NCBI GenBank assembly: GCA_020630715.1
Contig: JAHDIQ010000005.1
Location: 1-58,037, forward strand
Direction: 5' to 3'
Origin: Nonlabens sp.
Lineage (GTDB): Bacteria > Bacteroidota > Bacteroidia > Flavobacteriales > Flavobacteriaceae
Length of the DNA: 58,037 nucleotides
Shown: positions 1,995 to 56,835 of the stretch, in pieces
Layout: the number at the start of each line of letters is the position of its first letter
Position numbering within the stretch: the first letter of the stretch is position 1
Notes under the pieces: model-generated
What the model was told of the DNA's origin: nothing
Databases searched by the model: none
What the model saw: only the letters and a program-made list of their open reading frames with translations
Position numbers and translations under genes: made by a program

Positions 1995-2010
1995 CGCTTT
2001 CGCGAAAGCG
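1995..2010. repeat. 16-bp palindrome CGCTTTCGCGAAAGCG, intergenic
   Basis: Perfect copy of the window-wide palindrome in the 263-bp gap before the PorP/SprF gene. It is followed by TAATCC, the flank seen at several other copies. I see nothing else identifiable in this gap. Confidence 0.95.
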
Positions 2011-2090
2011 TAATCCACATCAATTTTGACATGCTCTACTGCTAGAAAGATGTAAAGAAACTAACTAACACAACCTAAATTAACTCTGAA

Positions 2091-3020
2091 ATGATGAGAA
2101 AATTACTAACGATGGGGATTTTTGCGCTCTTATCCGGCACGAGTGTATTGTTCGCTCAACAGGATCCGCAGTACACCCAGTACATGTATAATCAGAATGT
2201 GATTAATCCTGCTTATGCTGGTACTCAAGAAAATTTAACGATTACATCGTTATATAGGCAACAATGGACTGGTGTTCAAGGTGCTCCAGAGACGTTAACT
2301 GTTGCTGGTAGTATGCCAGTAGGTGATCGTGTAGGTGTAGGTCTTTCTATGATAAGCGATCAGATAGGTCCTGTTCAGGAGAAAAACTTTTATGGTGACT
2401 TTTCTTATAAATTATCAGTAGGAAAAAACACCACTTTAGCATTAGGTATAAAAGCTGGATTAACTTTCCATGACGTAAACCTAGCAACGATAGCAACGAC
2501 AGTTCCTGGTGATGATGCTTTTCAAGACCAAGTAAATGAAAACTACTTCAATGTAGGAACTGGAGCCTTTTTATATGGATCTAACTGGTATGCGGGATTA
2601 TCTGTCCCGAACTTACTAAATGCTGTGCATTTAGATGAAACGCAAAATGCAACAGGAACTAACTTAGGATCAGAAACACAGCACTTCTTTTTAACGGGTG
2701 GATATGTATTTGATATTAATGAAAATATCAAGTTAAAGCCACATGCACTTGTAAAAGGAGCTTTTGATGCGCCTATTAGTTTTGATATCAATACTAACGT
2801 CCTTTTCAATAACAAATTTGAATTAGGAGTTTCTTACAGACTAGAAGATTCTTTTAGCGGTTTAGTAGGTATGCAATTGACAGATAATGTGAAAGTAGGT
2901 TATGCTTATGACCGTGTGGTTTCTGATATTCAGGTAGCGGCAAATTCTTCTCACGAGATCTTTTTGACCTTTGGACTGAACTTCCCACGTAAAGTGATGC
3001 AATCACCACGTTTCTTCTAA
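2091..3020 (+). CDS. PorP/SprF family type IX secretion system membrane protein
   Basis: A 309-residue outer-membrane beta-barrel protein. A signal peptide (about residues 1-22, ending VLFAQ) is followed by the family hallmark QDPQYTQYMYNQNVINPAYA. Alternating beta strands run to the C-terminus. In gliding flavobacteria, SprF-like proteins help secrete a particular partner adhesin, and PorP is a T9SS component. This copy sits 26 bp upstream of an OmpA-family gene, the usual pairing. No giant SprB-type adhesin lies directly upstream here, so its cargo is unknown. Translation could begin at either of two adjacent ATG codons (2091 or 2094). Confidence 0.9.
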   Translation: MMRKLLTMGIFALLSGTSVLFAQQDPQYTQYMYNQNVINPAYAGTQENLTITSLYRQQWTGVQGAPETLTVAGSMPVGDRVGVGLSMISDQIGPVQEKNFYGDFSYKLSVGKNTTLALGIKAGLTFHDVNLATIATTVPGDDAFQDQVNENYFNVGTGAFLYGSNWYAGLSVPNLLNAVHLDETQNATGTNLGSETQHFFLTGGYVFDINENIKLKPHALVKGAFDAPISFDINTNVLFNNKFELGVSYRLEDSFSGLVGMQLTDNVKVGYAYDRVVSDIQVAANSSHEIFLTFGLNFPRKVMQSPRFF

Positions 3021-3046
3021 ACTAACCTAGCCAAGAAAACACTATC

Positions 3047-4921: not shown

Positions 4922-4951
4922 TCAAAGCATTATTTAACTAACCAATGCTTT

Positions 4952-7648: not shown

Positions 7649-7664
7649 CGCTTTCGCGAAAGCG
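7649..7664. repeat. 16-bp palindrome, intergenic, extended arms
   Basis: Perfect CGCTTTCGCGAAAGCG. Four further bases on each side (ATTA / TAAT) continue the symmetry to 24 bp (7645-7668). It sits just right of a separate terminator in a convergent gap. Confidence 0.95.
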
Positions 7665-7678: not shown

Positions 7679-9112
7679 CTAGTTACTAGTAAGAGAGATG
7701 TTATCTAGTTCGTAAGTTCCATCTGTACCTGAATCTCCAGATCCTTCATAGCGGAATGCGATATGACCAGTTCCATCTGCACAGTCTAGTGATACGTTTT
7801 CAGAGAATATCCAGTCACCAAAGAAATCTCCATCATCTACTATCGTAGCATCTGCCATAGGTTGCCATGTTGCTGCAGTTACATTTGCAGCGGTTCCATC
7901 CCAGTCGTTTGAGTATAATACTTGCATAGTAGATCCATCTGCAAAACTATTTGAAGTTTCAAAAGATAAAACTTCACCAGTGGTAGCATCAAAATCAAAT
8001 GATGGTGTAATTAACCATGCAATAGTTGAAGCATCACCAGAGCTAAATGCACCTACACGTACACTTTTACCTAAGGAAGCATTAGTTCCACCAGATGTGT
8101 AAACTTCCCAAGTTTCAGTTCCTGCTTCTTGAATGTTAGTCCATCCTGCTGGCATTGCTGCTGCACCAGTAGATTGTGTTTCAAAATTCTCTGATAATAA
8201 GGTGTTTGGTCCAGCTGCTGCAACGGTTCCACAAGCAAGAGGTGCTAGATCACAACGATCATCATCACCTAGATTGAAATTTTCTGGGGTATTCACGTAT
8301 AACACGTATACATCATCAAAAAAGTCACGAGTTAAAATAGCATCGATAGATCCTTTACCGTCAGGAATATTTAAGGCTTTAAAATCAGAGAATGTACTTG
8401 TCCATAAATTTGCAGTTGCACCAAAAGCGTCATTACAACTTTTAATACTACGTTCACCATCAAACTGGTCAAAAGATTCTGCTGCAAATGATAAATCGAT
8501 TTGATCTGAGACAAATTGTACATTATTTACTCTTACCCATGTTAATTCTAATGAGTCCGAGAAATCACTAAATTCAACATCCATAGGAATGATTTCTGCC
8601 ACTTCATTATCTCTTGTGATAAATTCAGCTTCTCTAGATGCTGCGATTCTTTCAATATCGCTTCCAGATCCTGCAAGTCCTATGGTTAAAACACCATTAG
8701 AAGTTCCTACTGTTAAACCGTCTAGTTTTAAGAAGATTTTTCTACCAAATTCATAGCGTGTAAACAATGGGTTAACATCAATAGAGATAGCTAATCCTTG
8801 ATTTGGGTTTTCTGGCTCATCCTGAATAATCAATTCTTTAAACCAGTTCCCACCAGCGTCATCACTAATCACATATCCAGTGATATATTCATTAGTTGTG
8901 TCAAAAGTAAAGGTGTCTTCACCGCTTTGTGCTAGTCTATTTGCAACTGTATTTAAGGCTACCACGTTACCATTAATAACAACTTCGTCACCTTCAAAAT
9001 TAGGGACATTAAAATCGTCATCTCCTACACAAGAGAATGTGATTGCAGCCACAAAGGCTAGCATGATTAGTTTATGAAAAGTTCTCATATTATTTATTTT
9101 AGTATTCATCAT
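7679..9112 (-). CDS. DUF5689 lipoprotein with C-terminal choice-of-anchor J domain
   Basis: A 477-residue surface lipoprotein. The lipobox is TFSC, with Cys28 if translation starts at 9112; an ATG at 9088 would give a shorter signal and is equally credible. An acidic linker (VGDDDF) follows the cysteine, typical of exported Bacteroidetes lipoproteins. Residues about 40-290 match DUF5689 (OB-like; features ITGYVISDDAGGNWFKELIIQD and FTRYEFG). The C-terminal part (about 300-477) is a jelly-roll choice-of-anchor J type domain. The start lies 2 bp from the stop of the TonB receptor, so the two are co-transcribed. Its role in the presumed uptake complex is unknown. Confidence 0.85.
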   Translation of the reverse strand: MMNTKINNMRTFHKLIMLAFVAAITFSCVGDDDFNVPNFEGDEVVINGNVVALNTVANRLAQSGEDTFTFDTTNEYITGYVISDDAGGNWFKELIIQDEPENPNQGLAISIDVNPLFTRYEFGRKIFLKLDGLTVGTSNGVLTIGLAGSGSDIERIAASREAEFITRDNEVAEIIPMDVEFSDFSDSLELTWVRVNNVQFVSDQIDLSFAAESFDQFDGERSIKSCNDAFGATANLWTSTFSDFKALNIPDGKGSIDAILTRDFFDDVYVLYVNTPENFNLGDDDRCDLAPLACGTVAAAGPNTLLSENFETQSTGAAAMPAGWTNIQEAGTETWEVYTSGGTNASLGKSVRVGAFSSGDASTIAWLITPSFDFDATTGEVLSFETSNSFADGSTMQVLYSNDWDGTAANVTAATWQPMADATIVDDGDFFGDWIFSENVSLDCADGTGHIAFRYEGSGDSGTDGTYELDNISLTSN

Positions 9113-9114
9113 TA

Positions 9115-11955
9115 TTAAAATCTTAAGTAAAAGTTGATATAGTAAGTACGGCCATTACCGTAAAAATAACGTGGTGCAAATACCTCTGTAGGGTTATTAC
9201 GATCTGCAAGTACGTCATCAAAATTAGCAAGACGGCTTTGTTCAAAACCACCTGTTCTGAACTCCTTACCTAACACGTTGTTAATAGTTGCAAAAAACCC
9301 TACAAATTTATCACCTATTCTCCATGACTTACCACCTACGATATTTACAATTTCGTATGGATTAAATTTTTCTTGACGCAATAAATCTGCAGCTACCTCA
9401 GGATCGTAGTTAGAATATTGTAATCCATCACTATCTAGATTAAAGTTACTGGACCTTCTTAAAGCAGAAACATCTACATACGCGTCTGAGAAGAAGTTTG
9501 CCGTAGCACCTACCCACCAATAATCTGGGTCACGGTACTCAAAACCTACCTGATAGGCTTGTTCTGGACCACCAGCTACATGATAATTTTTTAGATTAGT
9601 AGTTCCATCTCCAAAGGTTAAATCCTGATTTGGGAAGTCATCACTATTGATAGTGATATTAGGGTTGTTTGTAAATACATTTTCACCAAATGCTGCGGCA
9701 GCTTTTAATTTAATAGTTGGTGTTGCTTGAATTTCAAGTCCTATCTCTCCACCTACGTTTCTACGGTCTATGTTAGTAAGTACCTCTTGTACAAATGAAT
9801 TCCCGCCTTGTGAGGTTACACCAGTTAGTCTTTCTGTAAAGTAAAATCCTACATCAGTACCATCATTAAATTGTGAATAGTATCCAGTGATTCTTGCCTT
9901 GATAATAGGACTTCTATAGATATAAGAAGCGTCTACACTACTTACTGTTTGTGATTCTAAGCCAGTAACGATATTATTGTTTTGCCTAGCATTTGTAAAA
10001 GTACTTCTTATGGTAGGTGCTTGAGTAAGATACGCACCATTGATGTCTAGGAAGTTTTTACCATTGATTTTATAAGTCGCTCCAGCTTTAACACCAAAGT
10101 TGGTAAAATCTACCACGTCACTTTTTCCGAATGAGTTATTTTCAAAAGCGTTAAAGTTTCCATTTCTAAACTTACCATCACGCTGGTAGGTAGTTCTAGA
10201 AACATTACCTGCAGCGTAAAAGTCTACTAGTTTAGTTTTAAATTGACCTTGAGCAAAAGCTCCTACCTCATCTGCAAGGATATCATAGTTGTATTTATAG
10301 CGATCTCCTACGCCTACGATTCGATTTGGGTTATTTAAATCTGATTGTGCGGCTTGATCTTGAGATACTGTTTGTGATTCTTGTGCAAAAAAGTCCACGT
10401 CTAAATATCCGTTACCACCTAATAAATCGTCTACTTGTGCAAAGTTTTCACTTTTTAGATTTCGATAATTCATACCAGCTGTTAAAAGAATATTGTCCGT
10501 CACATCTGCAGTAAGAATAGAACTAGCCATAAATAAATCATCATCGATACGATCATTTTGGATCACATAAACACTATTTCCATTTGTTGGGTCAAATATT
10601 TGGTTTGCTCTATAAAAAGAATCCCAATCTAACTGTCCGTTGTTAAGAAACTCCTGTTGCGCAAAATAGGCTTGTTCTACATCACCATTTCTAAGGTGAT
10701 AACTAGGTAGGTTCTGATAGTAGTCTGCACTAGGATTACGCGCACCACCTACAGGACCAGCAATTGTACCATCTCCAAAAGTTGATAATCGCGTACCACC
10801 ATTATCAATTCTTGTGTTTCCGATAAAACCAAATTGGTAACCTACATTAGTATTTAATTTAATTTTATCATTTACTTGCCAGTTGTGATTTAACATTAAG
10901 ATAGGTTCTTCTATCTCGCGCATACGGCTATTTCTTACTTCTCCATTTTGAAAACCCCAGTTAGGGTTATACGTATTACCGCGTAACTCAAAAATTTCCT
11001 GAGTCATAGGTGCTTGTCTACCACGACGGTTAGGTGTATACAATCCTGTAAAGTTGATGAAGTGATTATCATTAATTTTCTTTTCTACAGAAATACCTAA
11101 TGAATTTGCGTCATAAATAGTACCGTCAATAAAACCTTCTTCTCCAGCACGTCTAGATGCAGTAATAGAATATGCCCATCCATTACCTTTAAGACCACTA
11201 TTGTAAGTTCCCATAAAGCGACCACGGTAACTGCGATTTGCACTAGCATAGGATATTTGTGATCCTGGACGTTGAATAGATGCACGCATGTTGATACTTT
11301 GTACACCACCTAGTCCACCCCAAGTATCATCTGCTGGTGCTAGTCCCATACTAAAGGTTTGATTACGTTGTAAATCATTAACTCCACCCCAATTACTCCA
11401 CTGTGGTCTACCAGAAAACATCTTGTTCATTACCAGACCGTTAATGAGCACTCTACCATCTTCACTGTTTAAACCACGTGGTCTAAAGAAAGTAGCACTA
11501 AAGTCAAATGCGGCAGCACGTAAAAACTGATCACGCGATGCTTGTAGTAATCCAGAAATATTGTTTGCTGCGTTTGCATCATCAGATAAATCATTTTCTG
11601 TAAGTGATATGATACCAGCAGTTTGTGCCTGATCAGAAAAATCAATTCTCAAGTAAATAGGGTCTAGATTTACCGGGATATTAGGATCAATTACTATAGG
11701 GATTCTACGAGAATAGTGATTAAGCTCGCTTATTTGAAGAATTCGTTCTCCAGCTGGTAGTGATTCTCCAAAAGTGAAATAACCTTGTGCATCTGTTGTA
11801 GTCGAATAAGAGGTTCCTAAGATTTCAATTAAGGCACCTTTAATGGGTTCTTCAGTGGTTTCATCGATGACTCTTCCTTTTACCACTTGGGCACTTAGGA
11901 AAGATCCACACAACAAAAATACAATGGTAAGAACCTGTATAACTTGTTTATTCAT
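9115..11955 (-). CDS. TonB-dependent receptor with carboxypeptidase-regulatory-like N-terminus
   Basis: A 946-residue outer-membrane transporter. The signal peptide spans about residues 1-22. A CarboxypepD_reg-like domain (about 23-105) starts VVKGRVIDETTEEPIKGALIEI. The plug domain lies at about 115-230 (RPRGLNSEDGRVLINGLVMN), and the 22-strand barrel fills the rest, ending in the aromatic YYINFYLRF. It forms an operon with the DUF5689 lipoprotein, and a nuclease-fold lipoprotein diverges upstream. I infer that the module imports nucleic-acid or organophosphate breakdown products. The ligand cannot be read from sequence. Confidence 0.9.
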   Translation of the reverse strand: MNKQVIQVLTIVFLLCGSFLSAQVVKGRVIDETTEEPIKGALIEILGTSYSTTTDAQGYFTFGESLPAGERILQISELNHYSRRIPIVIDPNIPVNLDPIYLRIDFSDQAQTAGIISLTENDLSDDANAANNISGLLQASRDQFLRAAAFDFSATFFRPRGLNSEDGRVLINGLVMNKMFSGRPQWSNWGGVNDLQRNQTFSMGLAPADDTWGGLGGVQSINMRASIQRPGSQISYASANRSYRGRFMGTYNSGLKGNGWAYSITASRRAGEEGFIDGTIYDANSLGISVEKKINDNHFINFTGLYTPNRRGRQAPMTQEIFELRGNTYNPNWGFQNGEVRNSRMREIEEPILMLNHNWQVNDKIKLNTNVGYQFGFIGNTRIDNGGTRLSTFGDGTIAGPVGGARNPSADYYQNLPSYHLRNGDVEQAYFAQQEFLNNGQLDWDSFYRANQIFDPTNGNSVYVIQNDRIDDDLFMASSILTADVTDNILLTAGMNYRNLKSENFAQVDDLLGGNGYLDVDFFAQESQTVSQDQAAQSDLNNPNRIVGVGDRYKYNYDILADEVGAFAQGQFKTKLVDFYAAGNVSRTTYQRDGKFRNGNFNAFENNSFGKSDVVDFTNFGVKAGATYKINGKNFLDINGAYLTQAPTIRSTFTNARQNNNIVTGLESQTVSSVDASYIYRSPIIKARITGYYSQFNDGTDVGFYFTERLTGVTSQGGNSFVQEVLTNIDRRNVGGEIGLEIQATPTIKLKAAAAFGENVFTNNPNITINSDDFPNQDLTFGDGTTNLKNYHVAGGPEQAYQVGFEYRDPDYWWVGATANFFSDAYVDVSALRRSSNFNLDSDGLQYSNYDPEVAADLLRQEKFNPYEIVNIVGGKSWRIGDKFVGFFATINNVLGKEFRTGGFEQSRLANFDDVLADRNNPTEVFAPRYFYGNGRTYYINFYLRF

Positions 11956-12079: not shown

Positions 12080-13171
12080 ATGTATAAGTATCTTGTTTAT
12101 AGTCTTTTATTATCCTTGTTTTTATCCAGTTGCGCTTCTAACAGTGGAACCATTAAAAAATCAAGTGCAAAAGATGATCAGTCTTCTGATTATGTAGTGC
12201 AAACCGTTGCCTTCTATAATCTTGAAAATTTATTTGATATAGAAGATGATACTTCTATTAATGATGAAGCTAGTCCCATGATGGAAATGGCTGAAGATAT
12301 CAGACCAGAAGTGTATCAGAAAAAACTAACTAATATGGCTCGCGTCTTGCGCAAAATAGGTGCAGATCAAACAGGAAGCGCACCAGCTATAATAGGTGTT
12401 TGTGAAATTGAAAATAGAAAAGTTCTAGAAGATCTAGTAAATCATGAGCTACTAGTAGGGTATGATTATGGAATAGAACATTATGATTCACCAGATCGAC
12501 GCGGAATTGACGTGGCTTTACTTTATAAGAAAAGTGAGTTTAGAGTAAATAATTCTCAATCTAGACGTTTAATGATTAGGAATAGAGAATCTGGAGATCG
12601 TATTTATACGCGTGATCAATTAGTAGTAAGTGGTGAGTTAAATGGTGATGAGATGCATTTTATTGTAAATCACTGGCCATCACGTCGTGGCGGTGAACAA
12701 CGCAGTAGACCTAATCGTGTTGCAGCGGCCGCTTTGAATAAGCAGATCATTGACTCCTTACACATTTCTAATGCTATGGCAAAAATCATAACCATGGGAG
12801 ATTTAAATGATGACCCTACAAATGAGAGTGTTGCGGTAACCTTAAATGCCCAAAGAGATCAGGAAGACGTGCAACCACAAATGATATATAATCCTTATAT
12901 CCAGATGATCAAAGAAGGATATAATACACTAGCTTATAGGGATGCAGGTAATATCTTTGATCAGATTATGATGACCTATCCATTATTAAAACAAGCTAAT
13001 ACTGGTGGATACTTTTACTATAAAGCAGGAATTTATAACCCTAGTTTTATGACTGCAAAAACCGGTCAATATAAAGGTTATCCATTACGTAGTTTCAGTT
13101 ACGGTACTTTTACTAATGGTTTTAGTGATCACTTTCCAGTATACATATATCTAATTAAGGAGATGAAATAA
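12080..13171 (+). CDS. Endonuclease/exonuclease/phosphatase-fold lipoprotein
   Basis: A 363-residue exported phosphodiesterase-fold protein. The signal MYKYLVYSLLLSLFLSSC ends in a lipobox (Cys18). The catalytic fold then shows FYNLENLFDIED, GVCEIENRKVL, VNHWPSRRGGEQ, MGDLNDDPTNES and the terminal GFSDHFPVYIY carrying the Asp-His pair. It is a clear paralogue of the unsecreted protein at 838-1827. Lipidation places it in the envelope, facing either the periplasm or the outside. It diverges from the TonB receptor/DUF5689 operon, so the likely role is releasing phosphate or nucleotides from extracellular polymers, by inference from context. Confidence 0.88.
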   Translation: MYKYLVYSLLLSLFLSSCASNSGTIKKSSAKDDQSSDYVVQTVAFYNLENLFDIEDDTSINDEASPMMEMAEDIRPEVYQKKLTNMARVLRKIGADQTGSAPAIIGVCEIENRKVLEDLVNHELLVGYDYGIEHYDSPDRRGIDVALLYKKSEFRVNNSQSRRLMIRNRESGDRIYTRDQLVVSGELNGDEMHFIVNHWPSRRGGEQRSRPNRVAAAALNKQIIDSLHISNAMAKIITMGDLNDDPTNESVAVTLNAQRDQEDVQPQMIYNPYIQMIKEGYNTLAYRDAGNIFDQIMMTYPLLKQANTGGYFYYKAGIYNPSFMTAKTGQYKGYPLRSFSYGTFTNGFSDHFPVYIYLIKEMK

Positions 13172-13589: not shown

Positions 13590-14496
13590 AGCGTTGTTTA
13601 AATTTAATATGACTACTAGTAATGGAAACCTTCATTGCTACACCCAGTAATATACTTCTATGATCTTTAATATGTCCAGCAGGAAAATCAAAAATCACAG
13701 GATAATTATAGTTGATAGTAATTTCTGTAATGATTTCAATTACATTCTTGCCAAAAGGCTTCTCATGGTCATTCATATCTGTCATTCCACCTATAACCAG
13801 CGCTTTCAAATTACTTAATTTTCCAGCGCGTTTAAGAGCAAATAGCATGCGTTCTATGTGATATAAGTATTCATCTATGTCTTCAATGAAAAGTATGGTT
13901 TGATTAGTATCTGGAAAATCGTCGCTACCTAACAATCCGTAGAGTATGGATAAATTACCTCCTACAATAATTCCCTCAATGTCTTGATTCTTTAATTTAT
14001 GATCGTTAGGGACTTCAATTTTATGAATATCACCACTCAAAATAGTTTTTAAACTTTCTATAGCATCATTAGATTTATCTCTTAATTCTAAGGGCATGAA
14101 ACTATGAAGACTTGGAATATGCAGTTTATTTAAACGTGCATGTAGGTAGGTTATATCACTGTAGCCTATGATAAGTTTTGGGTGGTTTGTATCACGCTTT
14201 CGCGAAAGCGAAATACCATCCTCATCCATCTTATCGATTAACTGCACCGTTCCATAACCGCCACGAGCTATCCAGATCACATCAACGTCGTCATCAAAAT
14301 AAGCATCTATAAAATCCTGAGAACGCAAGTTCACGTCTCCACCCATTTGGTGGTGTATTGTATCAATACTTTTCCCAAAACTAACGCGCAGACCTAAGGA
14401 TTTAAGAAAGTTGTACGCTGGTTCTAAATCTACAGATAGTGCATATCGAGCTGTGCATAATATCCTTATGTGGGAATTATTTGATAAAAAATTCAT
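13576..14496 (-). CDS. LD-carboxypeptidase (peptidase S66)
   Basis: A 306-residue cytoplasmic enzyme that removes the terminal D-Ala from murein tetrapeptides during cell-wall recycling. The nucleophile region is WIARGGYGTVQLID, with IIGYSDITYLHARL after it. The later EDIDEYLYHIERML supplies the catalytic Glu of the Ser-Glu-His triad, and FDFPAGHIKDHRSI the His. No signal peptide is present, as expected. The 16-bp palindrome is inserted in frame at 14195-14210 and encodes LSRKR in a variable loop between KMDEDGIS and the conserved GYSDIT. Confidence 0.9.
   Translation of the reverse strand: MNFLSNNSHIRILCTARYALSVDLEPAYNFLKSLGLRVSFGKSIDTIHHQMGGDVNLRSQDFIDAYFDDDVDVIWIARGGYGTVQLIDKMDEDGISLSRKRDTNHPKLIIGYSDITYLHARLNKLHIPSLHSFMPLELRDKSNDAIESLKTILSGDIHKIEVPNDHKLKNQDIEGIIVGGNLSILYGLLGSDDFPDTNQTILFIEDIDEYLYHIERMLFALKRAGKLSNLKALVIGGMTDMNDHEKPFGKNVIEIITEITINYNYPVIFDFPAGHIKDHRSILLGVAMKVSITSSHIKFKQRYGTT
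14195..14210. repeat. 16-bp palindrome inside the LD-carboxypeptidase gene
   Basis: Perfect CGCTTTCGCGAAAGCG, read on the minus strand as LSRKR. Confidence 0.95.
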
Positions 14497-17703: not shown

Positions 17704-17719
17704 CGCTTTCGCGAAAGCG
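17704..17719. repeat. 16-bp palindrome in a convergent gap
   Basis: Perfect copy with TTA and TAA flanks. It is the only strong hairpin in the 49-bp gap between the DUF1501 gene and the fibrinogen-like gene, so here it could also terminate transcription. Confidence 0.95.
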
Positions 17720-19412: not shown

Positions 19413-21494
19413 ATGAGCAGTCAGCAACGATTTACCATTACCGCAGCATTACCTTACACTAATGGGCCAGTTCATATAGGTCACCTCGCAGGTGTTTATG
19501 TTCCAGCAGATATCTATGCACGTTACCAGCGTTTATTAGGTAATGACGTAGCGTTTATTTGTGGTAGTGATGAGCATGGTGTGCCTATTACCATAAAGGC
19601 AAAAAAAGAAGGTATCACACCACAGGAACTTGTAAATCGATACCATAAAATCATAGGTGATTCTTTTAAGGAATTTGGGATAACGTTTGATAATTATAGT
19701 AGAACCAGTGCTCAAATTCATCATGATACGGCTAGTGCATTTTTTACTAAGTTGTATGACGATGGTAAATTTATAGAACAGGTTACAGAACAATTATACG
19801 ATCCAGAAGCAGATCAATTTCTAGCAGACCGTTTTGTAGTAGGAACCTGTCCTAAATGTGGCAATCCAGAATCTTATGGCGATCAGTGTGAGAAATGTGG
19901 AACCAGCCATAATGCAACAGACCTTATAGATCCTAAAAGCGCTATCACCGGTAACACTCCAGAATTGAAAGAAACCAGACACTGGTTCTTACCACTAGAT
20001 CAATACAGCGACTGGTTAAAAGAATGGATCGTAGATGGCCATGCTAGTGACTGGAAGTCAAATGTGCTAGGACAGGTAAAAAGCTGGATCACAGATGGAT
20101 TGCATCCACGTGCTGTCACGCGTGATCTAGATTGGGGAATTCCAGTTCCAGTAAACGGCGCAGATGGTAAAGTGCTATACGTATGGTTTGACGCGCCTAT
20201 AGGTTATATTAGCGCTACTAAGGAATGGGCAACTCGTGAAGGTAAAAACTGGGAAGATTACTGGAAGAATGAGGATACACAATTATTACATTTCATAGGA
20301 AAAGATAATATCGTTTTTCACTGTATCATATTTCCGGCCATGTTAAAAGCACACGGCGATTTTATCCTACCAGAAAACGTTCCTGCAAATGAATTCTTGA
20401 ATCTAGAAGATGATAAGATTTCTACTTCTAGAAACTGGGCAGTATGGTTGCATGAATACCTAGAAGACTTTCCAGATCAACAGGATGTCTTGCGTTATGT
20501 GCTTACTGCAAATGCGCCAGAAACAAAGGATAATAACTTCACCTGGAAAGACTTTCAGGCACGCAATAACAATGAGCTTGTTGCAAATCTGGGGAATTTT
20601 GTGAATCGTGTCATCGTGTTAACTAATAAATATTACGACGGCATCGTACCTCAAACTCAGGATTTAGATTCCCGTGATACAGAATTACTAGAGTTGATAA
20701 AAACCTACCCAGATAAAATAGGTAAGAGTGTGGAACAATTTCGCTTTCGCGAAAGCTTAAATCAGCTCATGCAATTGTCCAGTCTAGGGAACAAGTACAT
20801 TGCAGAAGAAGGACTGGAACCATGGAAACTCGTAAAAACCGAACCACAGAAAGTTCAAAATATTATGTATGTGTGTTTACAACTCACCACAGCACTGGCG
20901 ATTTTAAGTGAGCCATTCTTACCGCATACATCAACTAAGTTGAAAAATATGCTTAACTATTCTGCGCAAGATGTGGAATCTACTAGTTGGAATCATGTAG
21001 CTGGTTTAGAACCACTGTTACCAGCTAACCATAAAATCAATAAAGCTGCATTGCTTTTCTCTAGAATAGAAGACGAGCAAGTACAAGCACAATTAGAAAA
21101 ATTACAAGCTACTAAAGCGGCTAATCTCGGCTCAGCCGAAACAAAATCTAATCTTATGCCACAAAAAGAAGAAACGAATTACGACGATTTTATGAAAATG
21201 GATCTGCGCGTAGGTGAGATCCTAACCGCAGAGCGTATGCCTAAAACAGATAAGTTGATGGTGATGACTGTAGATACGGGAATCGATAAAAGAACTATCG
21301 TTTCTGGAATTGCACAGCATTTTGAGGCAACAGATTTAGTAGGTCGTAAAGTAACCGTACTGGCAAATCTAGCACCTAGAAAACTGCGCGGTGTAGAATC
21401 ACAAGGAATGATTTTACTGGCAGAAGATCCTGAAGGGAAACTAGTTTTTGTAAATCCAGATGATGCTGTTGTCAATGGCGCGACTATTGCCTAA
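19413..21494 (+). CDS. metG: Methionyl-tRNA synthetase
   Basis: A 693-residue class I aminoacyl-tRNA synthetase that charges tRNA-Met. The HIGH motif is at residues 21-24 (PVHIGHLAG). A zinc knuckle follows ([18 protein letters not shown], about 148-165). The KMSKS loop is the variant KISTSRN (about 330). The C-terminal 110 residues form an EMAP/Trbp-type tRNA-binding domain ([20 protein letters not shown]), giving the long dimeric form. The palindrome at 20742-20756 is read in frame as RFRES ([11 protein letters not shown]) in the anticodon-binding helical region. It is likely the first gene of a short operon with the SH3-like protein 11 bp downstream. Confidence 0.97.
20742..20756. repeat. 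16-bp palindrome (last base changed) inside metG
   Basis: CGCTTTCGCGAAAGC followed by T instead of G. Read as RFRES. Confidence 0.9.
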
Positions 21495-25559: not shown

Positions 25560-25575
25560 CGCTTTCGCGAAAGCG
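25560..25575. repeat. 16-bp palindrome, intergenic
   Basis: Perfect copy with TA/TA flanks, 12 bp downstream of the stop of the six-repeat cargo gene. The rest of the gap 25309-25586 is AT-rich and shows nothing else. Confidence 0.95.
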
Positions 25576-32421: not shown

Positions 32422-32437
32422 CGCTTTCGCGAAAGCG
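32422..32437. repeat. 16-bp palindrome in a divergent gap
   Basis: Perfect copy followed by TAATCC, between the histidine kinase and aldo/keto reductase starts. Confidence 0.95.
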
Positions 32438-34649: not shown

Positions 34650-35401
34650 TGGCTAAACGTAAATCACCTAGACTAAGAACGGTAAATAAATCTGTTTCAG
34701 CTTATCCAATAAATAAGTTTAATGCTGAGTTCCCTTATATTTTAGGTCAAGAGATCGTCTATTTATTAGCAAGTAAAGGTAGGCCAGATTTACAGGGAAA
34801 CGAATGGGAACAAATCTTTGCTCTTTGTATCGGAGCTGAATGGAAACCATCTAATGTTGGTCTAGACGATGTTGTTATGGGAAATACTGCATGGGGTGCT
34901 AAAACAGTAAAATCTGGTGTTAAGGACTTTTCTAACCTCAAAAAAGTAAGACTAATTTCTGGACGTAACTCTCCAGTATTTTCCTTTGGTAGCACTGTGG
35001 ATACTTCTATTGAACCCAATCTAGTAGGTGAACAAGTTTTAGAAATATGGAACGAACGAGTTTCCGCAATTCGAGAGAAATTTAAGCATCTTCGTACAGT
35101 TGTCCTTGTGAAATCAAATGACCTTTCACAAGTCGCAGTTTTTGAATTTGATACGATTAGATATGATGCAGAGCTTTTTACTTTCGAATGGAATAAGAAT
35201 GGTAATCTTGAAGGATTCATTAAAGGAACGAAGGACAAGCAATTTGTATGGCAACCTCATGGTTCTCAATTCACTATAATAGAAAATGTTCCTCAAGAAA
35301 CACTTATTTTGAAAATTAAACAACCTCAAGTGTTGAATAAAGAAAAAGTGCTTGAGACAATTGGATTTGATAAATCTTGGGTAACAGTTAAGCGCAAATA
35401 A
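34649..35401 (+). CDS. Putative type II restriction endonuclease
   Basis: A 250-residue protein that I cannot place in a named family. It begins on the last base of the methyltransferase stop codon, so it is translationally coupled, and is assigned as the cognate endonuclease on that basis. A possible PD-(D/E)xK-like core is Glu52/Glu54 (EWEQIF), Asp73-Asp74 (GLDDVV) and Lys85 (WGAKTVK), with Ala instead of Glu two residues before the Lys, as in some divergent enzymes. The start is fixed by the overlap (ATGGCTAAACG). No signal peptide or membrane segment is present. The catalytic residues are tentative. Confidence 0.75.
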   Translation: MAKRKSPRLRTVNKSVSAYPINKFNAEFPYILGQEIVYLLASKGRPDLQGNEWEQIFALCIGAEWKPSNVGLDDVVMGNTAWGAKTVKSGVKDFSNLKKVRLISGRNSPVFSFGSTVDTSIEPNLVGEQVLEIWNERVSAIREKFKHLRTVVLVKSNDLSQVAVFEFDTIRYDAELFTFEWNKNGNLEGFIKGTKDKQFVWQPHGSQFTIIENVPQETLILKIKQPQVLNKEKVLETIGFDKSWVTVKRK

Positions 35402-36565: not shown

Positions 36566-36581
36566 CGCTTTTGCGAAAGCG
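36566..36581. repeat. Variant 16-bp palindrome, intergenic
   Basis: CGCTTTTGCGAAAGCG, one base off the standard sequence, with TA / TAATTAC flanks. Confidence 0.85.
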
Positions 36582-38909: not shown

Positions 38910-38925
38910 CGCTTTCGCGAAAGCG
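38910..38925. repeat. 16-bp palindrome in a divergent gap
   Basis: Perfect copy upstream of greA with GA / AAATT flanks. Confidence 0.95.
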
Positions 38926-41901: not shown

Positions 41902-41917
41902 CGCTTTCGCGAAAGCG
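41902..41917. repeat. 16-bp palindrome in the riboswitch leader
   Basis: Perfect copy between the TPP aptamer and the receptor start. It would form a hairpin in the leader RNA. Confidence 0.95.
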
Positions 41918-44047: not shown

Positions 44048-44610
44048 TAACTCAGTAATTCTTCTATCACCATAGGAAAATGAAAGTGTTCTAATTGATG
44101 AATGCGTGTTGCAAGATCATCTGCTGTGTCTCCTTTATATATAGGACAAGAAAACTGTGCAATGGTTGCGCCCTCATCATAATTTTCATTCACATAATGA
44201 ATCGTTATACCACTAGTTTCTTCATTATTTTTTATTACGGCACGGTGCACATTCATGCCGTACATTCCTTTACCACCATAATTAGGAAGTAATGCAGGAT
44301 GGATGTTGATAAGTTTATTGGGGAATAATTTTATGAGATTTTCAGGTATTTTCCACAAAAAACCAGCAAGAACCACTAAATCAGGCTGTTCTGATAGCAG
44401 TAAATTTCCTACAGTTTCCGCTTTCGCGAAAGCGTATTTATTAAAACTTAAGGCTGGAATTTCAGATTTTTTAGCTCGCTCTAGCACATATGCCTCAGGC
44501 TTATTAGATAAAACCAAAGAAACCCTAGCGAGATCAGAATTTTTAAAATGATCTATAATTGCCTGAGCATTAGTACCATTACCAGATGCGAGAATGACGA
44601 TTTTCTTCAT
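44047..44610 (-). CDS. purN: Phosphoribosylglycinamide formyltransferase
   Basis: A 187-residue enzyme of purine synthesis that transfers a formyl group from 10-formyl-THF to GAR. The N-terminal ILASGNGTNAQAII binds GAR phosphate. The catalytic region has INIHPALLPNYGGKGMYGMN (Asn-His), VHRAVI, and SGITIHYVNENYDEGATI with the catalytic Asp. The palindrome at 44419-44434 encodes AFAKA within NKYAFAKAETV. It precedes rnhA on the same strand and diverges from acpP. Confidence 0.95.
   Translation of the reverse strand: MKKIVILASGNGTNAQAIIDHFKNSDLARVSLVLSNKPEAYVLERAKKSEIPALSFNKYAFAKAETVGNLLLSEQPDLVVLAGFLWKIPENLIKLFPNKLINIHPALLPNYGGKGMYGMNVHRAVIKNNEETSGITIHYVNENYDEGATIAQFSCPIYKGDTADDLATRIHQLEHFHFPMVIEELLS
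44419..44434. repeat. 16-bp palindrome inside purN
   Basis: Perfect copy, read as AFAKA on the minus strand; the only AFAKA-frame copy in this window. Confidence 0.95.
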
Positions 44611-49701: not shown

Positions 49702-50787
49702 TTAGAACGGTATTTCCATTTGATGTTGAACAAAACTTGCTGTATCTTCCTCATTATTAAGGTTTGATAACGTAATTCCTAGTAGTCTTACGCTTTCGCG
49801 AAAGCGTTCCTGACGCATCAACTGTACTGCTACCTCTAGGATTAATTCTTTAGACCTAATGTAGTGATCTAGGGTTTTACTGCGCGTTTGAGTTTTGAAA
49901 TCACTGTATTTGATTTTTAAGGTGACGGTTTTACCTGCTATATCATTTTTAGCCAGTCGTTTTTCTAATTCTATTGCAATTTGTTCTAGTCGTTCTTGCA
50001 TGTAAATTTCGCTAGTGATGTTACTAGAAAAGGTACGTTCTGCGCCTAGAGATTTACGAGTGCGATCTGGTTTCACCGCACTTTTATGGATGCCACGGAC
50101 GATATGATAGTAGTGACTGCCACTTTTACCAAAATGATCCACCAGAAATTCTTCTGATTTTTGTTTCAGATCTGCACCAGTGAAAATGCCTAATTCAAAC
50201 ATCTTTTGAGCCGTTACCTTTCCTACGCCATAAAACTTCTGGATTTCTAATTGTTCTAGAAAATCTAATACTTCCTCTGGTGGTATGGTTTTTTGGCCAT
50301 TAGGTTTATGGTAATCACTAGCAACCTTTGCCACAAATTTATTGATAGAAATTCCGGCACTAGCCGTAAGTTGTGTTTTCTCGTAAATCCTACGTCTTAT
50401 CTCATAGGCGATAACGGTTGCACTAGGAAAATTGAGTTTATTAGTGGTAACATCTAGATAAGCTTCATCCAGCGATAACGGCTCTACTAAGTCTGTATAC
50501 TCTAGGAATATCTCTCGTATGTGTTGAGAGACCTCACGATACACTTCAAATCTGTGTTTTACAAAAATAAGATCAGGACATAATCGTTTTGCAGTGACAC
50601 TAGGCATGGCACTGCGCACGCCATATTTACGAGCTTCATAACTAGCAGCTGCTACCACACCGCGATCACTACCACCGCCTACCGCGATAGGTTTTCCTTT
50701 TAATTCTGGATGATCGCGCTGTTCTACACTAGCATAGAAAGCATCCATATCTACGTGTATTATTTTACGGTCATCTAGAATTTCCAT
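49702..50787 (-). CDS. dinB: DNA polymerase IV (Y family)
   Basis: A 361-residue translesion polymerase. Palm residues are visible in HVDMDAFYASVEQRDHPEL and in PLSLDEAYLDVT (catalytic acidic residues). The thumb has a helix-hairpin-helix (KFYGVGKVTAQKMFELGI) and the little-finger domain follows. The extreme C-terminus lacks an obvious beta-clamp QLxLF peptide, ending VQHQMEIPF instead. The palindrome at 49791-49806 encodes RFRES (ERFRESVRLLGI) late in the little finger. Confidence 0.96.
   Translation of the reverse strand: MEILDDRKIIHVDMDAFYASVEQRDHPELKGKPIAVGGGSDRGVVAAASYEARKYGVRSAMPSVTAKRLCPDLIFVKHRFEVYREVSQHIREIFLEYTDLVEPLSLDEAYLDVTTNKLNFPSATVIAYEIRRRIYEKTQLTASAGISINKFVAKVASDYHKPNGQKTIPPEEVLDFLEQLEIQKFYGVGKVTAQKMFELGIFTGADLKQKSEEFLVDHFGKSGSHYYHIVRGIHKSAVKPDRTRKSLGAERTFSSNITSEIYMQERLEQIAIELEKRLAKNDIAGKTVTLKIKYSDFKTQTRSKTLDHYIRSKELILEVAVQLMRQERFRESVRLLGITLSNLNNEEDTASFVQHQMEIPF
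49791..49806. repeat. 16-bp palindrome inside dinB
   Basis: Perfect copy, read on the minus strand as RFRES. Confidence 0.95.
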
Positions 50788-50819: not shown

Positions 50820-51485
50820 ATGTTAATGAAATATACAGCAGTAGTAATAGGCGCCAGCGGATTAACCGGAAGTTTTCTTTTTGAACAGTTGCTGGAGAAT
50901 AGCAGTTATGATAAAGTGATTTCGCTTTCACGAAAGCGAATTATCCATAAGCATCCTAAACATCAGAACCATTTAGTAGAGTTGTTTAATCCTGAAACAT
51001 ACCGTGAATATCTTAAAGGTGATCATTTGTTTATTTGCACGGGAACTACTCAAGCTAAAACACCAGATCCTAAAGATTACTATCGTATAGAACATGATCT
51101 ACCAGTAGGAATCGCAAAAGAAGCCAAAGCAAATGGGTTTTCTAAAGTCATTGTAATTTCTGCATTAGGAGCATCACCATCTAGTAAATTTATGTATAAT
51201 CGTGGTAAAGGTGAGATGGAACGCGATATAGAAGCTTTAGGTTTTAAAGAGAATTATTTTGTCCAGCCAGCATTAATCGGTGGAAATCGTAGTGAGAAAA
51301 GACCATTTGAATCGTTTTGGAAGAAAGTTCAAAAAATCATTGATCCCTTGTTAATAGGTCCATTAAAAAAATACCGAACTATTCATCCTACAGTCATCGC
51401 AACTTCTATGATGGTAGTAGCACTAAATGGATATCCTAAGTCACGCATTGAAAGTGATGAGTTAAAGAGCATTGCTAGTGATTAG
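50820..51485 (+). CDS. NAD(P)-binding oxidoreductase (HTATIP2/YbjT-like)
   Basis: A 221-residue Rossmann-fold protein of the atypical short-chain dehydrogenase group. The dinucleotide loop is VVIGASGLTGSFLFEQLL. FICTGTTQAKTPDPKDYYRIEHDL and VIVISALGASPSSKFMYNRGKGEME (with Tyr and Lys in the expected area) resemble the HTATIP2 group. The start may be ATG 50820 or ATG 50826. A variant palindrome at 50923-50938 encodes LSRKR within ISLSRKRIIH. The gene diverges from dinB with 32 bp between. Confidence 0.88.
   Translation: MLMKYTAVVIGASGLTGSFLFEQLLENSSYDKVISLSRKRIIHKHPKHQNHLVELFNPETYREYLKGDHLFICTGTTQAKTPDPKDYYRIEHDLPVGIAKEAKANGFSKVIVISALGASPSSKFMYNRGKGEMERDIEALGFKENYFVQPALIGGNRSEKRPFESFWKKVQKIIDPLLIGPLKKYRTIHPTVIATSMMVVALNGYPKSRIESDELKSIASD
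50923..50938. repeat. Variant 16-bp palindrome inside the oxidoreductase gene
   Basis: CGCTTTCACGAAAGCG, one base off; still read as LSRKR. Confidence 0.88.
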
Positions 51486-52244: not shown

Positions 52245-52253
52245 CTAGATTGT

Positions 52254-52979: not shown

Positions 52980-52980
52980 A

Positions 52981-54078: not shown

Positions 54079-54125
54079 AATTTTGTTTTGTTAAAAATTG
54101 TAATTGGACTTACGTTTTTAGCTGT

Positions 54126-54160: not shown

Positions 54161-54393
54161 TTTCAGTAATACTTTTATTTGCAGGCAATTATTTTTGTTT
54201 AAACATAGTGTTACTTTTTTTTAAAATGATCAGCAAAAATATTTCTTAACTATTATTTAACACGAAATGTCTTATCATTACTCATACCGACATACCCATT
54301 CACTATTTAGTATAAAAAATCGTAAAAGGTTGCTTTTTAAAGAAGTTTTCTATTTTCCAATAGCCGAAACTACCTTTTTATATCTTAATCAAC

Positions 54394-54413
54394 AATACCC
54401 CATAAGGGGTATT
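54394..54413 (-). terminator. Terminator after pbpC
   Basis: Perfect 8-bp stem AATACCCC, loop ATAA, GGGGTATT, 8 bp after the pbpC stop. Minus-strand flanks are only mildly T-rich. Confidence 0.65.
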
Positions 54414-54420
54414 TTATGAA

Positions 54421-56835
54421 TTACCTAAACTCCAAAACCATTCTCACATCATACCCATTTTCATCAGTTGCGGTGATTACGTGAGAGCCTGGTGTTGCAT
54501 TGATAGCGATTTCATGAAAATTAGTGGTAGAGGTAATAAATGTACTATCCAGATACCAATACACTTTAGAATCCGGTGTCATATGAGCTAATTCAATGAC
54601 CGTTTGATTTGCATTTCCATAAACATCAATAGTATTTGTAATTGTTGTTCCGTGTTTAGGCTTGATAAATCGCATGGTTTCTTGATCGCTAGGTTTGCAA
54701 TCTTCGCGGTAAGGTGGTAATGACTCGTAATCTGGATTTTTCCTGTTGTAATACCATGCCATCACAGGTGGCAATTGAAAAACAGCGCTAGCTGTGATAT
54801 TAGAAATAGACTCGCAATCTGCGTTTACACGATAATTTCCAGAAAGGTCTGTTTGAATGATTTTGTGATATGGACATGAAGCATAACGTTCACCAGTAGC
54901 TGGAATCCATTGTTTCTCACTAGTGCAATCTGGTGTTGCTAGAAATCCTGATTTTGAACAAATATCAGTTTCAATCATATCGTCATATGGTGGCGCAAAC
55001 CATCCAGTATCTGGTAGCCTGTTGAACAAATCAAATAGAACAGGTGCAGCACTTTTAATACCAGTCATTTCGGCGCGTCCTTCACCATCTGCGTTTCCGG
55101 TCCAGACGCCTATGACATATTTGGTAGTCACGCCTATTGCCCATGCATCGCGATTTCCCCAACTGGTTCCTGTTTTCCATGCGATTTGCTGGTTAGGATT
55201 AAAAAAGTGCCAGATTTCTTCTCCTTCTGGACGGTTTACCGTCGCCATCGCTTCAAAGGTGTGGTAAATACTTCCTGCTCCATACAATACTGGAGTTGTA
55301 CTCAATTGCATACTGCGAGTATGGCGTGGCAGTCTGTTGTTCTCAACTTCATTGTTGTGGTTAGTAATGTTGCCTTTCTCGGTGACGCTTTCGCGAAAGC
55401 GTAATCCATCGTCCACATAGCTTAAATGATGCATCAGGTTTTGATCATATTCACTGCTCGTACTCGTGTAATCTTGAAGACTGCTAGCAATAGCTAGATA
55501 GGCGTGGCACATGTCCCATAGACTGCTTTCGCCACCACCTATGATGAGGCTTAAACCGTAGGTGCCAGAACCGCGATTGATGTGTGATTGCTTTAAATCT
55601 TGTAATTTTTGGTAAAATCTGGGAACCGTATAATCGCGCAACATACGCACCGCGGGAACGTTAAGCGACCGCGCCAAAGCCTGCGATGCTGGAAGCGCAC
55701 CGCTATAGCTTTTGTCAAAATTTTCTGTATTGTAACCATTAATACTGGTAGGAATATCTTTTACTAGACTGTGAGGTAATAGCTCGCCTTGATCCAGCAT
55801 TGCAGCGTATAAAAACGGTTTTAAAACACTACCAGTACTGCGTGGTGCGGTGATGATATCTACGTCTCTTTGATGTTCTTTTGTAGTAGGTGCATTACCT
55901 ATATAAGCAGATACCGATTGGTTTCTAACATCTAAAACCAGCATTGCTAGGTTGTTGATTCCGTTTTGTTTTAAAATGTTATGGTGGTTTTTTACAATGC
56001 GAGAAACGGTATTTTGTAGCTCATAATCTATAGTCGTTCTTATTTTTTGAGTCCCATATTCTTTATTAGCTCGATGCAGTAAATGCGGTGCGAGTTGTGG
56101 TACTCTAAAATCCCGTGTAGGAACAGATTCTGAAATTGCTAATTCATAATCCATGGCATTAATGATTCCTTCTTCTTTTAATTTTAAAAGCAAGACATCG
56201 CGCTTGCGTTTTAGCTGGTTTTCTCTTTTACCAGGATAAATCAATCCTGGTGCGTTAGGCAATACAGCAAGTGTTGCACTTTCTGCCCAGCTTAATTCAT
56301 GTGGTTGCCTACCAAAATACCGCCACGACGCCATATCTAGTCCTACCACATTACCACCATAAGGCGCGTGCGATGCATACAGTTCTAGAATTTCTTTTTT
56401 TGAGTGTCGTACTTCTAGTCGTGTAGCCCAAATCAATTCTATAAATTTCTCTAGGTAAGTTCTATCACGCTTTCGCGAAAGCCGAATCACCTGTTGCGTA
56501 ATAGTACTACCACCACGTACGACCTCGCCAGCATTGATATTGTCTTTAATCGCTTTTATGATAGACACAGGATTAAATCCTGGATGACTATAAAAGCTAG
56601 CATCTTCATACTGTAATAGACATTGCTCATATTTAAAAGGAATACTATCTACCGCAGGAAATCGCCACTGATCATCGCTGGCAATGTGAGCATCTAATAA
56701 TCTACCATTGCTACTGGTGATCACTGTAGAGTAGGGAACATCAAAAAGTTTTTCTGGCAAACACAACGCATACCACAACAGAATTATCGTTGCGATACTA
56801 AGCTTGATTTTATGTTTGTAGAACCATTTTTTCAT
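54421..56835 (-). CDS. pbpC: Penicillin-binding protein 1C
   Basis: An 804-residue bifunctional cell-wall synthase if begun at ATG 56835 (MKKWFYKHKIKLSIATIILL), which gives a normal membrane anchor; an ATG at 56865 would add ten residues. The glycosyltransferase domain (about 50-220) has EDASFYSHPGFNPVSI and GGSTITQQVIRLSRKR. The transpeptidase has STGSVLKPF (SxxK), SLNVPAV (SxN) and KTGTSWG. The C-terminal BiPBP_C domain follows (about 720-804). Two palindrome copies (55386 as RFRES, 56468 as LSRKR) interrupt less-conserved stretches. A terminator follows. Confidence 0.95.
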   Translation of the reverse strand: MKKWFYKHKIKLSIATIILLWYALCLPEKLFDVPYSTVITSSNGRLLDAHIASDDQWRFPAVDSIPFKYEQCLLQYEDASFYSHPGFNPVSIIKAIKDNINAGEVVRGGSTITQQVIRLSRKRDRTYLEKFIELIWATRLEVRHSKKEILELYASHAPYGGNVVGLDMASWRYFGRQPHELSWAESATLAVLPNAPGLIYPGKRENQLKRKRDVLLLKLKEEGIINAMDYELAISESVPTRDFRVPQLAPHLLHRANKEYGTQKIRTTIDYELQNTVSRIVKNHHNILKQNGINNLAMLVLDVRNQSVSAYIGNAPTTKEHQRDVDIITAPRSTGSVLKPFLYAAMLDQGELLPHSLVKDIPTSINGYNTENFDKSYSGALPASQALARSLNVPAVRMLRDYTVPRFYQKLQDLKQSHINRGSGTYGLSLIIGGGESSLWDMCHAYLAIASSLQDYTSTSSEYDQNLMHHLSYVDDGLRFRESVTEKGNITNHNNEVENNRLPRHTRSMQLSTTPVLYGAGSIYHTFEAMATVNRPEGEEIWHFFNPNQQIAWKTGTSWGNRDAWAIGVTTKYVIGVWTGNADGEGRAEMTGIKSAAPVLFDLFNRLPDTGWFAPPYDDMIETDICSKSGFLATPDCTSEKQWIPATGERYASCPYHKIIQTDLSGNYRVNADCESISNITASAVFQLPPVMAWYYNRKNPDYESLPPYREDCKPSDQETMRFIKPKHGTTITNTIDVYGNANQTVIELAHMTPDSKVYWYLDSTFITSTTNFHEIAINATPGSHVITATDENGYDVRMVLEFR
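55386..55401. repeat. 16-bp palindrome inside pbpC, copy 1
   Basis: Perfect copy, followed by TAATCC, read as RFRES in GLRFRESVTEKG. Confidence 0.95.
56468..56482. repeat. 16-bp palindrome (last base changed) inside pbpC, copy 2
   Basis: CGCTTTCGCGAAAGC followed by C. Read as LSRKR, right after QQVIR in the glycosyltransferase domain. Confidence 0.9.

Follow-up and report, generated by a model that had tools for sequence, protein, structure and literature searches.

What is a 16-base palindrome, CGCTTTCGCGAAAGCG, doing at 16 places in and between the genes of a Nonlabens sp. contig (JAHDIQ010000005.1, positions 1 to 58,037; the whole 58,037-nucleotide stretch is referred to here as the window), and what might read it? 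We approached the question through the abundance of the palindrome, the placement and origin of its copies, and the candidate machinery encoded beside them.

Copies in the window and across the Flavobacteriaceae

All 16 coordinates given in a preliminary description of the window proved exact on re-check, and no 17th match was found when the window was searched with up to three mismatches. Twelve copies are perfect and four have one base changed, as described. Eight lie between predicted ORFs, i.e. perfect copies between tandem genes at 1995–2010 and 25560–25575, between convergent genes at 7649–7664 (14 bases from the stop of a DUF5689 gene) and 17704–17719, and between divergent genes at 32422–32437, 38910–38925 and 41902–41917, together with a copy with one base changed between tandem genes at 36566–36581. 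The remaining eight lie within ORFs: perfect copies in the genes for a peptidase S66 (14195–14210), a peptidase M28 (29857–29872), a formyl transferase (44419–44434), a Y-family polymerase (IMS; 49791–49806) and a transglycosylase/penicillin-binding protein (55386–55401), and changed copies in metG (20742–20757, last base, codons RFRES), in an epimerase-type gene (50923–50938, one base) and again in the penicillin-binding protein gene (56468–56483, last base). The even division between intergenic and genic copies that had been reported is therefore correct, in a window of which 90% is coding. Dinucleotide shuffles gave 0.10 sites on average and at most two, against the 16 real ones, and Markov models of order 1–5 with the motif masked predicted fewer than 1e-5 perfect copies, which upholds the earlier view that chance would give essentially none.

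Enrichment is not limited to the window. The genome holds 448 perfect palindromes in 2,978,537 bases (approx. 2.98 Mb), 627 copies with the 12-base core and 718 copies within two mismatches, far above the Markov expectation. The spacing of about 3.6 kb proposed earlier describes the window, but genome-wide perfect copies occur once per 6.6 kb. The 22 other genomes searched of Nonlabens, a marine genus, carry 180–737 perfect copies each, so that 23 of 23 members of the genus are loaded, by which we mean rich in the palindrome, and among 397 drawn Flavobacteriaceae genomes only two more were loaded, from two further genera. Near-perfect copies by the hundred in each genome, far more than chance would give, are what would be expected of an uptake sequence. 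No earlier description of the palindrome turned up in the literature searched, a coverage that leaves out most subscription papers and bioRxiv preprints: no paper with the 16-mer was found, none of those containing TTTCGCGAAA and none of those on Nonlabens and palindromes was by its title about this motif, and nothing was found on a highly iterated palindrome in Flavobacteria.

Placement, spacing and flanks of the sites

Of 94 sites placed relative to genes in a complete Nonlabens chromosome (G019), 45 are intergenic, in a genome of which approx. 11% is non-coding. Genic sites use all three reading frames, indicating a DNA motif and not a protein motif, as in known uptake sequences, and intergenic sites lie in tandem, convergent and divergent settings (26, 10 and 4 respectively in the window group; 25, 9 and 8 in G019). 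Spacing, again as expected of an uptake sequence, is more even than random placement: against a null of uniform placement irrespective of the intergenic preference, site pairs closer than 2 kb numbered 13 where 33 were expected in G019, 4 where 14 were expected in relatives and 7 where 13.5 were expected in the loaded genome G226. The CV of the whole spacing distribution was not significant in G004 (P 0.11) or G226 (P 0.13); close pairs were scarce in both. Site number was lower in low-GC stretches of G226 (Spearman 0.59, p 0.006) and had no significant relation to GC in G019 (Spearman 0.16, p 0.51), so we draw no conclusion on GC dependence.

To describe distribution along the chromosome, we sampled roughly evenly spaced 20-kb stretches covering 13–14% of each chromosome (14% of G019). 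Sites were present in 20 of 20 stretches in G019 and likewise in 20 of 20 in G226, and neither sample revealed any confinement to, or exclusion from, the origin or terminus. One role put forward in the preliminary description, in segregation, is thus unsupported for a site tied to either region, as is nucleoid occlusion, because all sampled stretches carry sites and the loaded genomes share no extra ParB-domain paralogue. A Noc- or ParB-like reader was also considered: a second ParB-domain ORF, of 616 amino acids, is found in the loaded genomes G014 and G019, but it is also present in the unloaded G137 and G048.

The hexamer TAATCC, reported earlier as a recurring flank, is exact at only three of the 16 window sites; the wider signal is found 3′ of each arm, where a W-A-A-T step occurs and G is scarce out to about 25 bases. 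The pairing of mirrored flank bases is close to the composition expectation, which marks the flank signal as one of composition and not as part of a longer inverted repeat. An origin of the flanks purely by C-to-T deamination was considered but dropped: where C has been lost, not only T but also G is raised.

Origin of the sites at shared codons

The metG copy offers a comparison across genera. The change from RFREA to RFRES at this site, without gaps, is found in 13 of 20 Nonlabens genomes with a full-length match and in both other loaded genera, and the three loaded genera stand apart in the MetG tree. The site occurs in none of 93 rows from other genera, and in the 91 of these rows that were measured the corresponding codons are at least four bases from the motif. 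In addition, G226 has a site at the same codons of hisD and hisB as G019, accounting for two of the six G019 genic sites with a G226 homologue in hand. More broadly, 469 of 714 protein alignments with a site-lacking homologue are gap-free near the site; 210 alignments are gapped at the site, 18 of them in homologues with the site, and 169 of the 210 come from six queries, all of one peptidase gene. Gaps within the site occur in 54 of the 141 comparisons among Nonlabens relatives that differed. On these alignments, the sites arise mostly by substitution in place. Whatever protein reads it, the palindrome at identical codons, in metG in three genera and in hisD and hisB in two, amounts to a natural experiment on the spread of a genome-wide motif.

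With regard to mobile DNA, two Nonlabens phages contain no match with up to three mismatches, although, as close relatives, they are nearly a single observation. A perfect site was found in 41 stretches of IMG/VR viral contigs, and islands common to a loaded genome and unloaded genomes do carry sites.

Candidate readers and rival explanations

The palindromes look like selected or driven DNA recognition sites, perhaps tags for the uptake of own-kind DNA. An uptake or recombination signal was among the roles first suggested, and it fits best, short of proof. Our preferred reading, held tentatively and at somewhat under an even chance, is that the palindrome is an uptake-sequence-like recognition site spread by biased uptake through the pilus-free flavobacterial transformation system. 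The 16 bases with their G-poor flanks of about 25 bases would be a protein-recognition site on double-stranded DNA; a surface component (DUF5689, barrel or partner) would bind extracellular DNA bearing the palindrome, and such fragments would be imported and recombined more often. Preferential import and recombination would cause site-carrying alleles to spread (molecular drive), and if one site per fragment suffices, extra close copies would be unfavoured, giving the repulsion at about 2 kb.

The window itself encodes a candidate pair, identified by Pfam domain and adjacency, in which a DUF5689 protein (7679–9112, minus strand) lies beside a putative outer-membrane protein whose N-terminal part carries a carboxypeptidase regulatory-like domain (CarboxypepD_reg; 9115–11955, minus strand). 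According to PMC8459023, the Riemerella transformation protein RA0C_RS04920 belongs to the DUF5689 family and RA0C_RS04915 is an outer-membrane protein needed for transformation. On family and neighbour type, as opposed to direct comparison of the sequences, the first window protein is a candidate uptake component corresponding to RA0C_RS04920, and the second, on domain and arrangement, is the putative counterpart of RA0C_RS04915. The DUF5689 family is, however, not motif-specific, being present in 26 of 26 genomes, of which 12 are loaded, and its two C-terminal types were found in loaded and unloaded genomes alike. A simple receptor hypothesis fails, as neither the DUF5689 tree nor the barrel tree groups the three loaded genera; the pair does not track the motif, and the reader of the palindrome is therefore not pinned to it. 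A search for relatives of DUF5689 among solved structures gave none, the only two matches having E values of 0.4 and 0.61. In the literature searched, no report of natural competence in Nonlabens was seen, and the one paper found on uptake sequences and natural competence in Flavobacteriaceae concerns Riemerella columbina.

Type IV pilus systems read the uptake sequences of Pasteurellaceae and Neisseriaceae. No PF00437 ATPase of this machine scored above the cut-off in the loaded genomes tested (six of six), indicating that the known kind of uptake-sequence apparatus is absent. Neisserial DUS and Pasteurellacean USS resemble the Nonlabens palindrome in being short motifs in hundreds to thousands of copies, with an intergenic excess, even spacing and in-place appearance in orthologues, but they are shorter and non-palindromic. 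PMC7811141 describes uptake sequences for these two families and the Haemophilus USS as rare in newly acquired DNA, much as the Nonlabens palindrome is missing from the two phages; PMC1939737 states that known uptake sequences are not palindromes.

The main rival, which we regard as possible but doubtful, is that the palindrome binds an intracellular chromosome-organizing or DNA-processing protein, such as a nucleoid protein, condensin loader, topoisomerase or recombination factor, with one site per few kilobases. The palindrome has dyad symmetry, which dimeric DNA-binding proteins usually recognize, the flank signature is long and symmetric, the sampled chromosomes are evenly covered with repulsion below 2 kb, and absence from the phages together with even spacing would also suit an architectural role. 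In addition, a second small palindrome is accompanied by motif half-sites in 12 of 20 contexts, as if the TTT^CGCG^AAA centre can open. The parS and Noc sites are 16- and 14-base palindromes with TTTC...GAAA arms; they share perfect symmetry and such arms with the Nonlabens motif, which differs in having two bases fewer between TTTC and GAAA. The Nonlabens palindrome also has hundreds of copies and no origin or terminus bias in the samples, and its genomes have one chromosomal ParB, like unloaded relatives. Selection on one of several hundred architectural sites should also be weak, yet an alanine in a conserved MetG motif has become serine in three lineages.

Other explanations are less probable. 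A HIP1-like motif, favoured selectively or mutationally by a lineage-specific methyltransferase or repair enzyme, strikes us as improbable. The analogy, drawn in the preliminary description, holds for habit, HIP1 (GCGATCGC) of cyanobacteria being likewise a palindrome repeated many times both within genes and between them, and the core contains TCGCGA; it does not extend to sequence, phylum or length, the Nonlabens motif being twice as long with extended G-poor flanks. Sixteen bases plus 25-base flanks exceed the usual methylase site. PMC4390886 links HIP1 to orphan methyltransferases that act on sequences inside it. No PF00145 methyltransferase is common to the loaded genomes; among 18 genomes searched, the loaded G022 and G226 have none and five unloaded ones do, so that the methylation role suggested earlier is unsupported in the form of C5-methylation by PF00145 enzymes. 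It is very improbable that the palindrome is a transcription element (operator, terminator or mRNA hairpin): the intergenic excess and the ability of the RNA to fold as a short hairpin would agree with this, but roughly half of the Nonlabens sites are genic, in every frame, the intergenic ones occur in all three orientations, none of the 16 window sites is directly followed by a T-run and the window has no Rfam match. The earlier judgement that it is not simply a terminator thus stands. REP palindromes are defined by a tetranucleotide signature, and the least credible reading of all is a REP- or MITE-type mobile repeat spread by a transposase. Although near-identical, dispersed palindromic copies recall REP/BIME with RAYT, and the gaps inside the site among Nonlabens relatives might suggest insertion, there is no REP-type signature, coding copies are mostly indel-free, and inserting 16 bases would put a gene out of frame. 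The precise insertion that such an element would leave is not seen in metG, hisD or hisB, where the site lies in alignable protein sequence of unchanged length; some gapped comparisons, those among Nonlabens relatives, remain.

Returning to the uptake reading, a broader version of it, which we put forward as a speculation with the balance against it, is that a pilus-independent palindromic uptake sequence arose separately in at least three Flavobacteriaceae genera and defines a cross-genus gene-sharing group, with a DUF5689/barrel complex or partner as reader and copies persisting as exchange tags, for example in copper-efflux islands. The palindrome may also mark DNA exchanged with loaded genera. 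If the uptake reading is true, flavobacterial DNA import would gain a ready ligand in the form of a 16-base oligonucleotide, and a palindromic, pilus-free uptake tag in Bacteroidota would mean that uptake specificity evolves repeatedly.

Abundance and placement of the palindrome

All 16 positions claimed in the preliminary description for a 16-base palindrome (the site) proved exact, with 12 perfect copies and four carrying one change, and no further copy was found in the window at up to three mismatches. The reported half-and-half split was likewise borne out, eight sites lying between ORFs and eight within. Shuffled window sequence gave a mean of 0.10 copies against the 16 observed, and fewer than 1e-5 perfect copies were expected in the window under Markov models of order 1–5 with the motif masked. 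A genome-wide count, as the preliminary description proposed, showed enrichment beyond the window: in the 2.98 Mb source genome the site occurs 448 times in perfect form and its 12-base core 627 times, 718 places match at up to two mismatches, and the reversed pattern never occurs. The MetG protein encoded in the window shares 88% identity with its Nonlabens ulvanivorans counterpart, and all 23 Nonlabens genomes searched carry 180–737 perfect copies, the lowest count coming from a genome that is 78% complete; there were none in 16 comparison genomes (one of the same family and 15 of the same order). We also counted the core in 397 evenly drawn Flavobacteriaceae genomes, four being Nonlabens, among which the only others loaded with hundreds of copies were G226 (445 cores) and G242 (917 cores), each the sole representative of its genus. 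The next-highest counts were 21, 19 and 19; at least one core was present in 104 of the 397, where counts of one to three may be background because the reversed control itself reaches three. In a phylum draw of 395 genomes, from which G226, G242 and all other Nonlabens were absent, a perfect copy was present in 11 and more than two copies only in the source genome. Neither of the Nonlabens phages P12024L and P12024S (35.7 kb each) has a site at up to three mismatches or any TCGCGA, of which the 58 kb window has 19; this absence is nearly one observation since the phages are close relatives. No report of the motif was found in the open-access papers searched; the palindrome belongs to a known kind, the highly iterated genomic motif.

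By ORF-based gene calls, there were 35 genic and 40 intergenic sites in the window and its sampled Nonlabens relatives (91% coding), counts that are not independent because orthologous sites are included, 49 and 45 in the complete Nonlabens chromosome G019 (89% coding), and 44 and 12 in G226 (89% coding). Frame use, read from the encoded peptides, showed that all reading frames are used in G019 (AFAKA 31, RFRES 9 and LSRK 9). Sites were present in 20 of 20 roughly evenly spaced 20 kb stretches of G019 and in 20 of 20 of G226, so that there is no origin or terminus void at that sampling. Sites repel each other at short range: measured against uniform placement, pairs closer than 2 kb numbered 1 versus 5.1 expected in the window, 4 versus 14.0 in the relatives, 13 versus 33.0 in G019 and 7 versus 13.5 in G226. 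Overall evenness (CV) was not significant for G226 (P 0.13) or for perfect sites of Nonlabens G004 (P 0.11), although pairs closer than 1 kb were scarce in both.

Anatomy of the site and its flanks

In Nonlabens the site is maintained with almost no internal mismatches. A 400 kb sample of the G019 chromosome held 84 perfect sites; 21 others had a single mismatch and four had three, with none at two, and the single changes fell on the outermost base (10), the sixth arm base (9) or elsewhere (2). The central CGCG was unchanged in all 21 one-mismatch sites of this sample (L177–L196), and its constancy, set against the changes at the sixth arm base, hints at unequal contacts within the site. The G226 site is looser (23 perfect, 27 one-mismatch, 24 two-mismatch and 20 three-mismatch), with the outermost base accounting for 23 of its 27 single changes.

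Beyond the 3′ side, G makes up 6% of bases 4–12 in the window and its relatives (87 sites; background 18%) and 6% in G019 (93 sites; background 20%); in Nonlabens it stands at 8–11% at bases 12–20 and is close to background by about base 40, the G-poor flank being seen at both in-gene and intergenic sites. G226 shows the same trend weakly (17% versus 23%; 61 sites). Mirrored flank bases pair about as often as expected, indicating that the flanks do not extend the palindrome. In addition, another small palindrome, CCTGCCTGCCGGCAGGCAGG or a 21-base variant that ends in ATGG, interrupts the 16-base site in the middle; of 20 distinct contexts in 30 loci (L258–L287), 12 had half-site words close by, and two cases in Nonlabens G005 (L141:9136 and L142:497) were checked against an unsplit relative. 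A different 45-base insert was seen near the centre of a G005 site (L142 near 19623) by comparison with Nonlabens G009 (L145:13810).

Gain of sites mostly by substitution

Our comparisons show a spaced recognition site that has been gained mostly by substitution and that occupies the same codons of metG in separate genera. The MetG peptide RFREA is conserved across the phylum, and in many loaded genomes it is RFRES, encoded by the palindrome. Among the 20 of 23 Nonlabens genomes with a full-length match, 13 have Ser (core intact in 11) and seven Ala; Ser together with the core is also found in G226 and in G242. Ser was found at this position in none of 93 rows of other genera, 14 of which come from genomes with known low or zero site counts and 79 from named loci of uncounted genomes, the loci themselves having no core site. 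In 91 of these rows the FRE motif is plain, and there the codons depart from the 15-mer at four to nine positions; the metG site was gained without length change. In a MetG tree of 115 rows (quick search, SH-aLRT support only) the loaded genera fall in three separate places: Nonlabens forms its own clade (100), G226 groups with the unloaded G123 (96), and G242 lies in an open fork with the unloaded G372, G322 and G112 (95). Of the six G019 genic sites for which a G226 homologue was available, two, in hisD and hisB, also occupy matching codons in the two genomes, the proteins being about 55–62% identical.

More broadly, 184 protein queries from genic sites found a homologue elsewhere for 78. 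Of 714 alignments to site-lacking homologues, 469 were ungapped nearby, 53 had a gap nearby and 192 a gap at the site; these are not independent, since genes repeat and some rows are second loci of one genome, a few of them from the query's own genome listed under a different locus identifier. One peptidase gene, through six queries, supplied 169 of 210 gap-at-site alignments. In 303 comparisons between Nonlabens relatives, with many pairs counted both ways, 162 sites were unchanged, 87 differed by substitutions (one or two bases in 68) and 54 had a gap; we inspected the 45 highest-identity differing alignments. As the differences are mostly ungapped or substitutions, substitution dominates, and indels do occur.

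Some copies lie in DNA recently shared between genera, as judged from a metal-efflux cluster about 90% identical across them. In the six unloaded genomes with readable positions (G123, G114, G251, G137, G048 and, for seven of its ten places, G372), most listed copies fall in clusters of approximately 3–100 kb, and a pair exactly 933 bases apart recurs in four of the six. The DNA around this pair includes copper/heavy-metal efflux genes of the CusA/CzcA, CopA and TolC type (10 proteins scanned), with palindrome copies within the genes. G019 has the same cluster with the same pair (L192); over 4.9 kb it is approximately 89–90% identical at the DNA level to G123, G137 and G251 (L146–L152), reaching as much as 97.7% near one site. 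Across eleven island stretches, 20 of 31 core sites were matched at some length in the loaded DNA compared and 11 were unmatched; the 3′ flank of island copies is G-poor too (8% versus 19%; 26 sites).

Candidate readers of the palindrome

A mobile repeat fails as an explanation in the face of the in-place codon evidence from metG, hisD and hisB. The earlier statement that the palindrome is not simply a terminator holds, a terminator or RNA role failing on the use of all reading frames, the mixed gene contexts and the lack of any Rfam match in the window. The suggested role as a methylation site is not supported for C5 methylation by PF00145 enzymes, which two loaded genomes lack. The window has a C5-cytosine methyltransferase gene (33669–34649), followed directly by a 250-amino-acid ORF without a Pfam match (34649–35401) that could be its restriction partner. 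An architectural DNA-binding protein, by comparison, fits the site spacing and the dyad symmetry, and accounts for them as well as uptake does; its origin- or terminus-restricted form, including a segregation site of that kind (segregation being one of the candidate roles in the preliminary description), is not supported, given sites in every sampled stretch of G019 and G226. An extra ParB-type reader common to loaded genomes was also not supported.

As regards uptake, an account of Haemophilus describes even distribution as an expected outcome of molecular drive (PMC7811141). Some Flavobacteriaceae are described as naturally transformable without pili, Riemerella being the example, where transformation depends on a DUF5689 protein together with its neighbour, an outer-membrane protein that has a carboxypeptidase regulatory domain (PMC8459023); R. 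columbina favours its own DNA, and the search for candidate motifs there was confined to short k-mers (PMC7965970). The window encodes a DUF5689 protein (7679–9112) and a carboxypeptidase-regulatory-domain barrel protein (9115–11955) that match the Riemerella pair by domain and order, adjoined by an exonuclease/endonuclease-family gene (12080–13171). We propose an inferred link between the palindrome and this system, which, itself or through a partner, would prefer palindrome-bearing DNA. DUF5689 is found in each of the 26 genomes examined, of which 12 are loaded and 14 unloaded, and the loaded genera do not come together in either the DUF5689 or the barrel tree; specificity must therefore stem from some small change, from another protein or from a wholly different reader. 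The C terminus of DUF5689 comes in two types, one with an ending like GTYELDN and the other like TTRYHVDN, which are intermingled across genera. The TTRYHVDN type is that of Nonlabens G022, whose site count is low (255), and the nine other Nonlabens listed have the GTYELDN type or a near variant.

We know of no earlier palindromic, pilus-free uptake sequence; if the palindrome is a true uptake sequence, it would be the first such example known to us.
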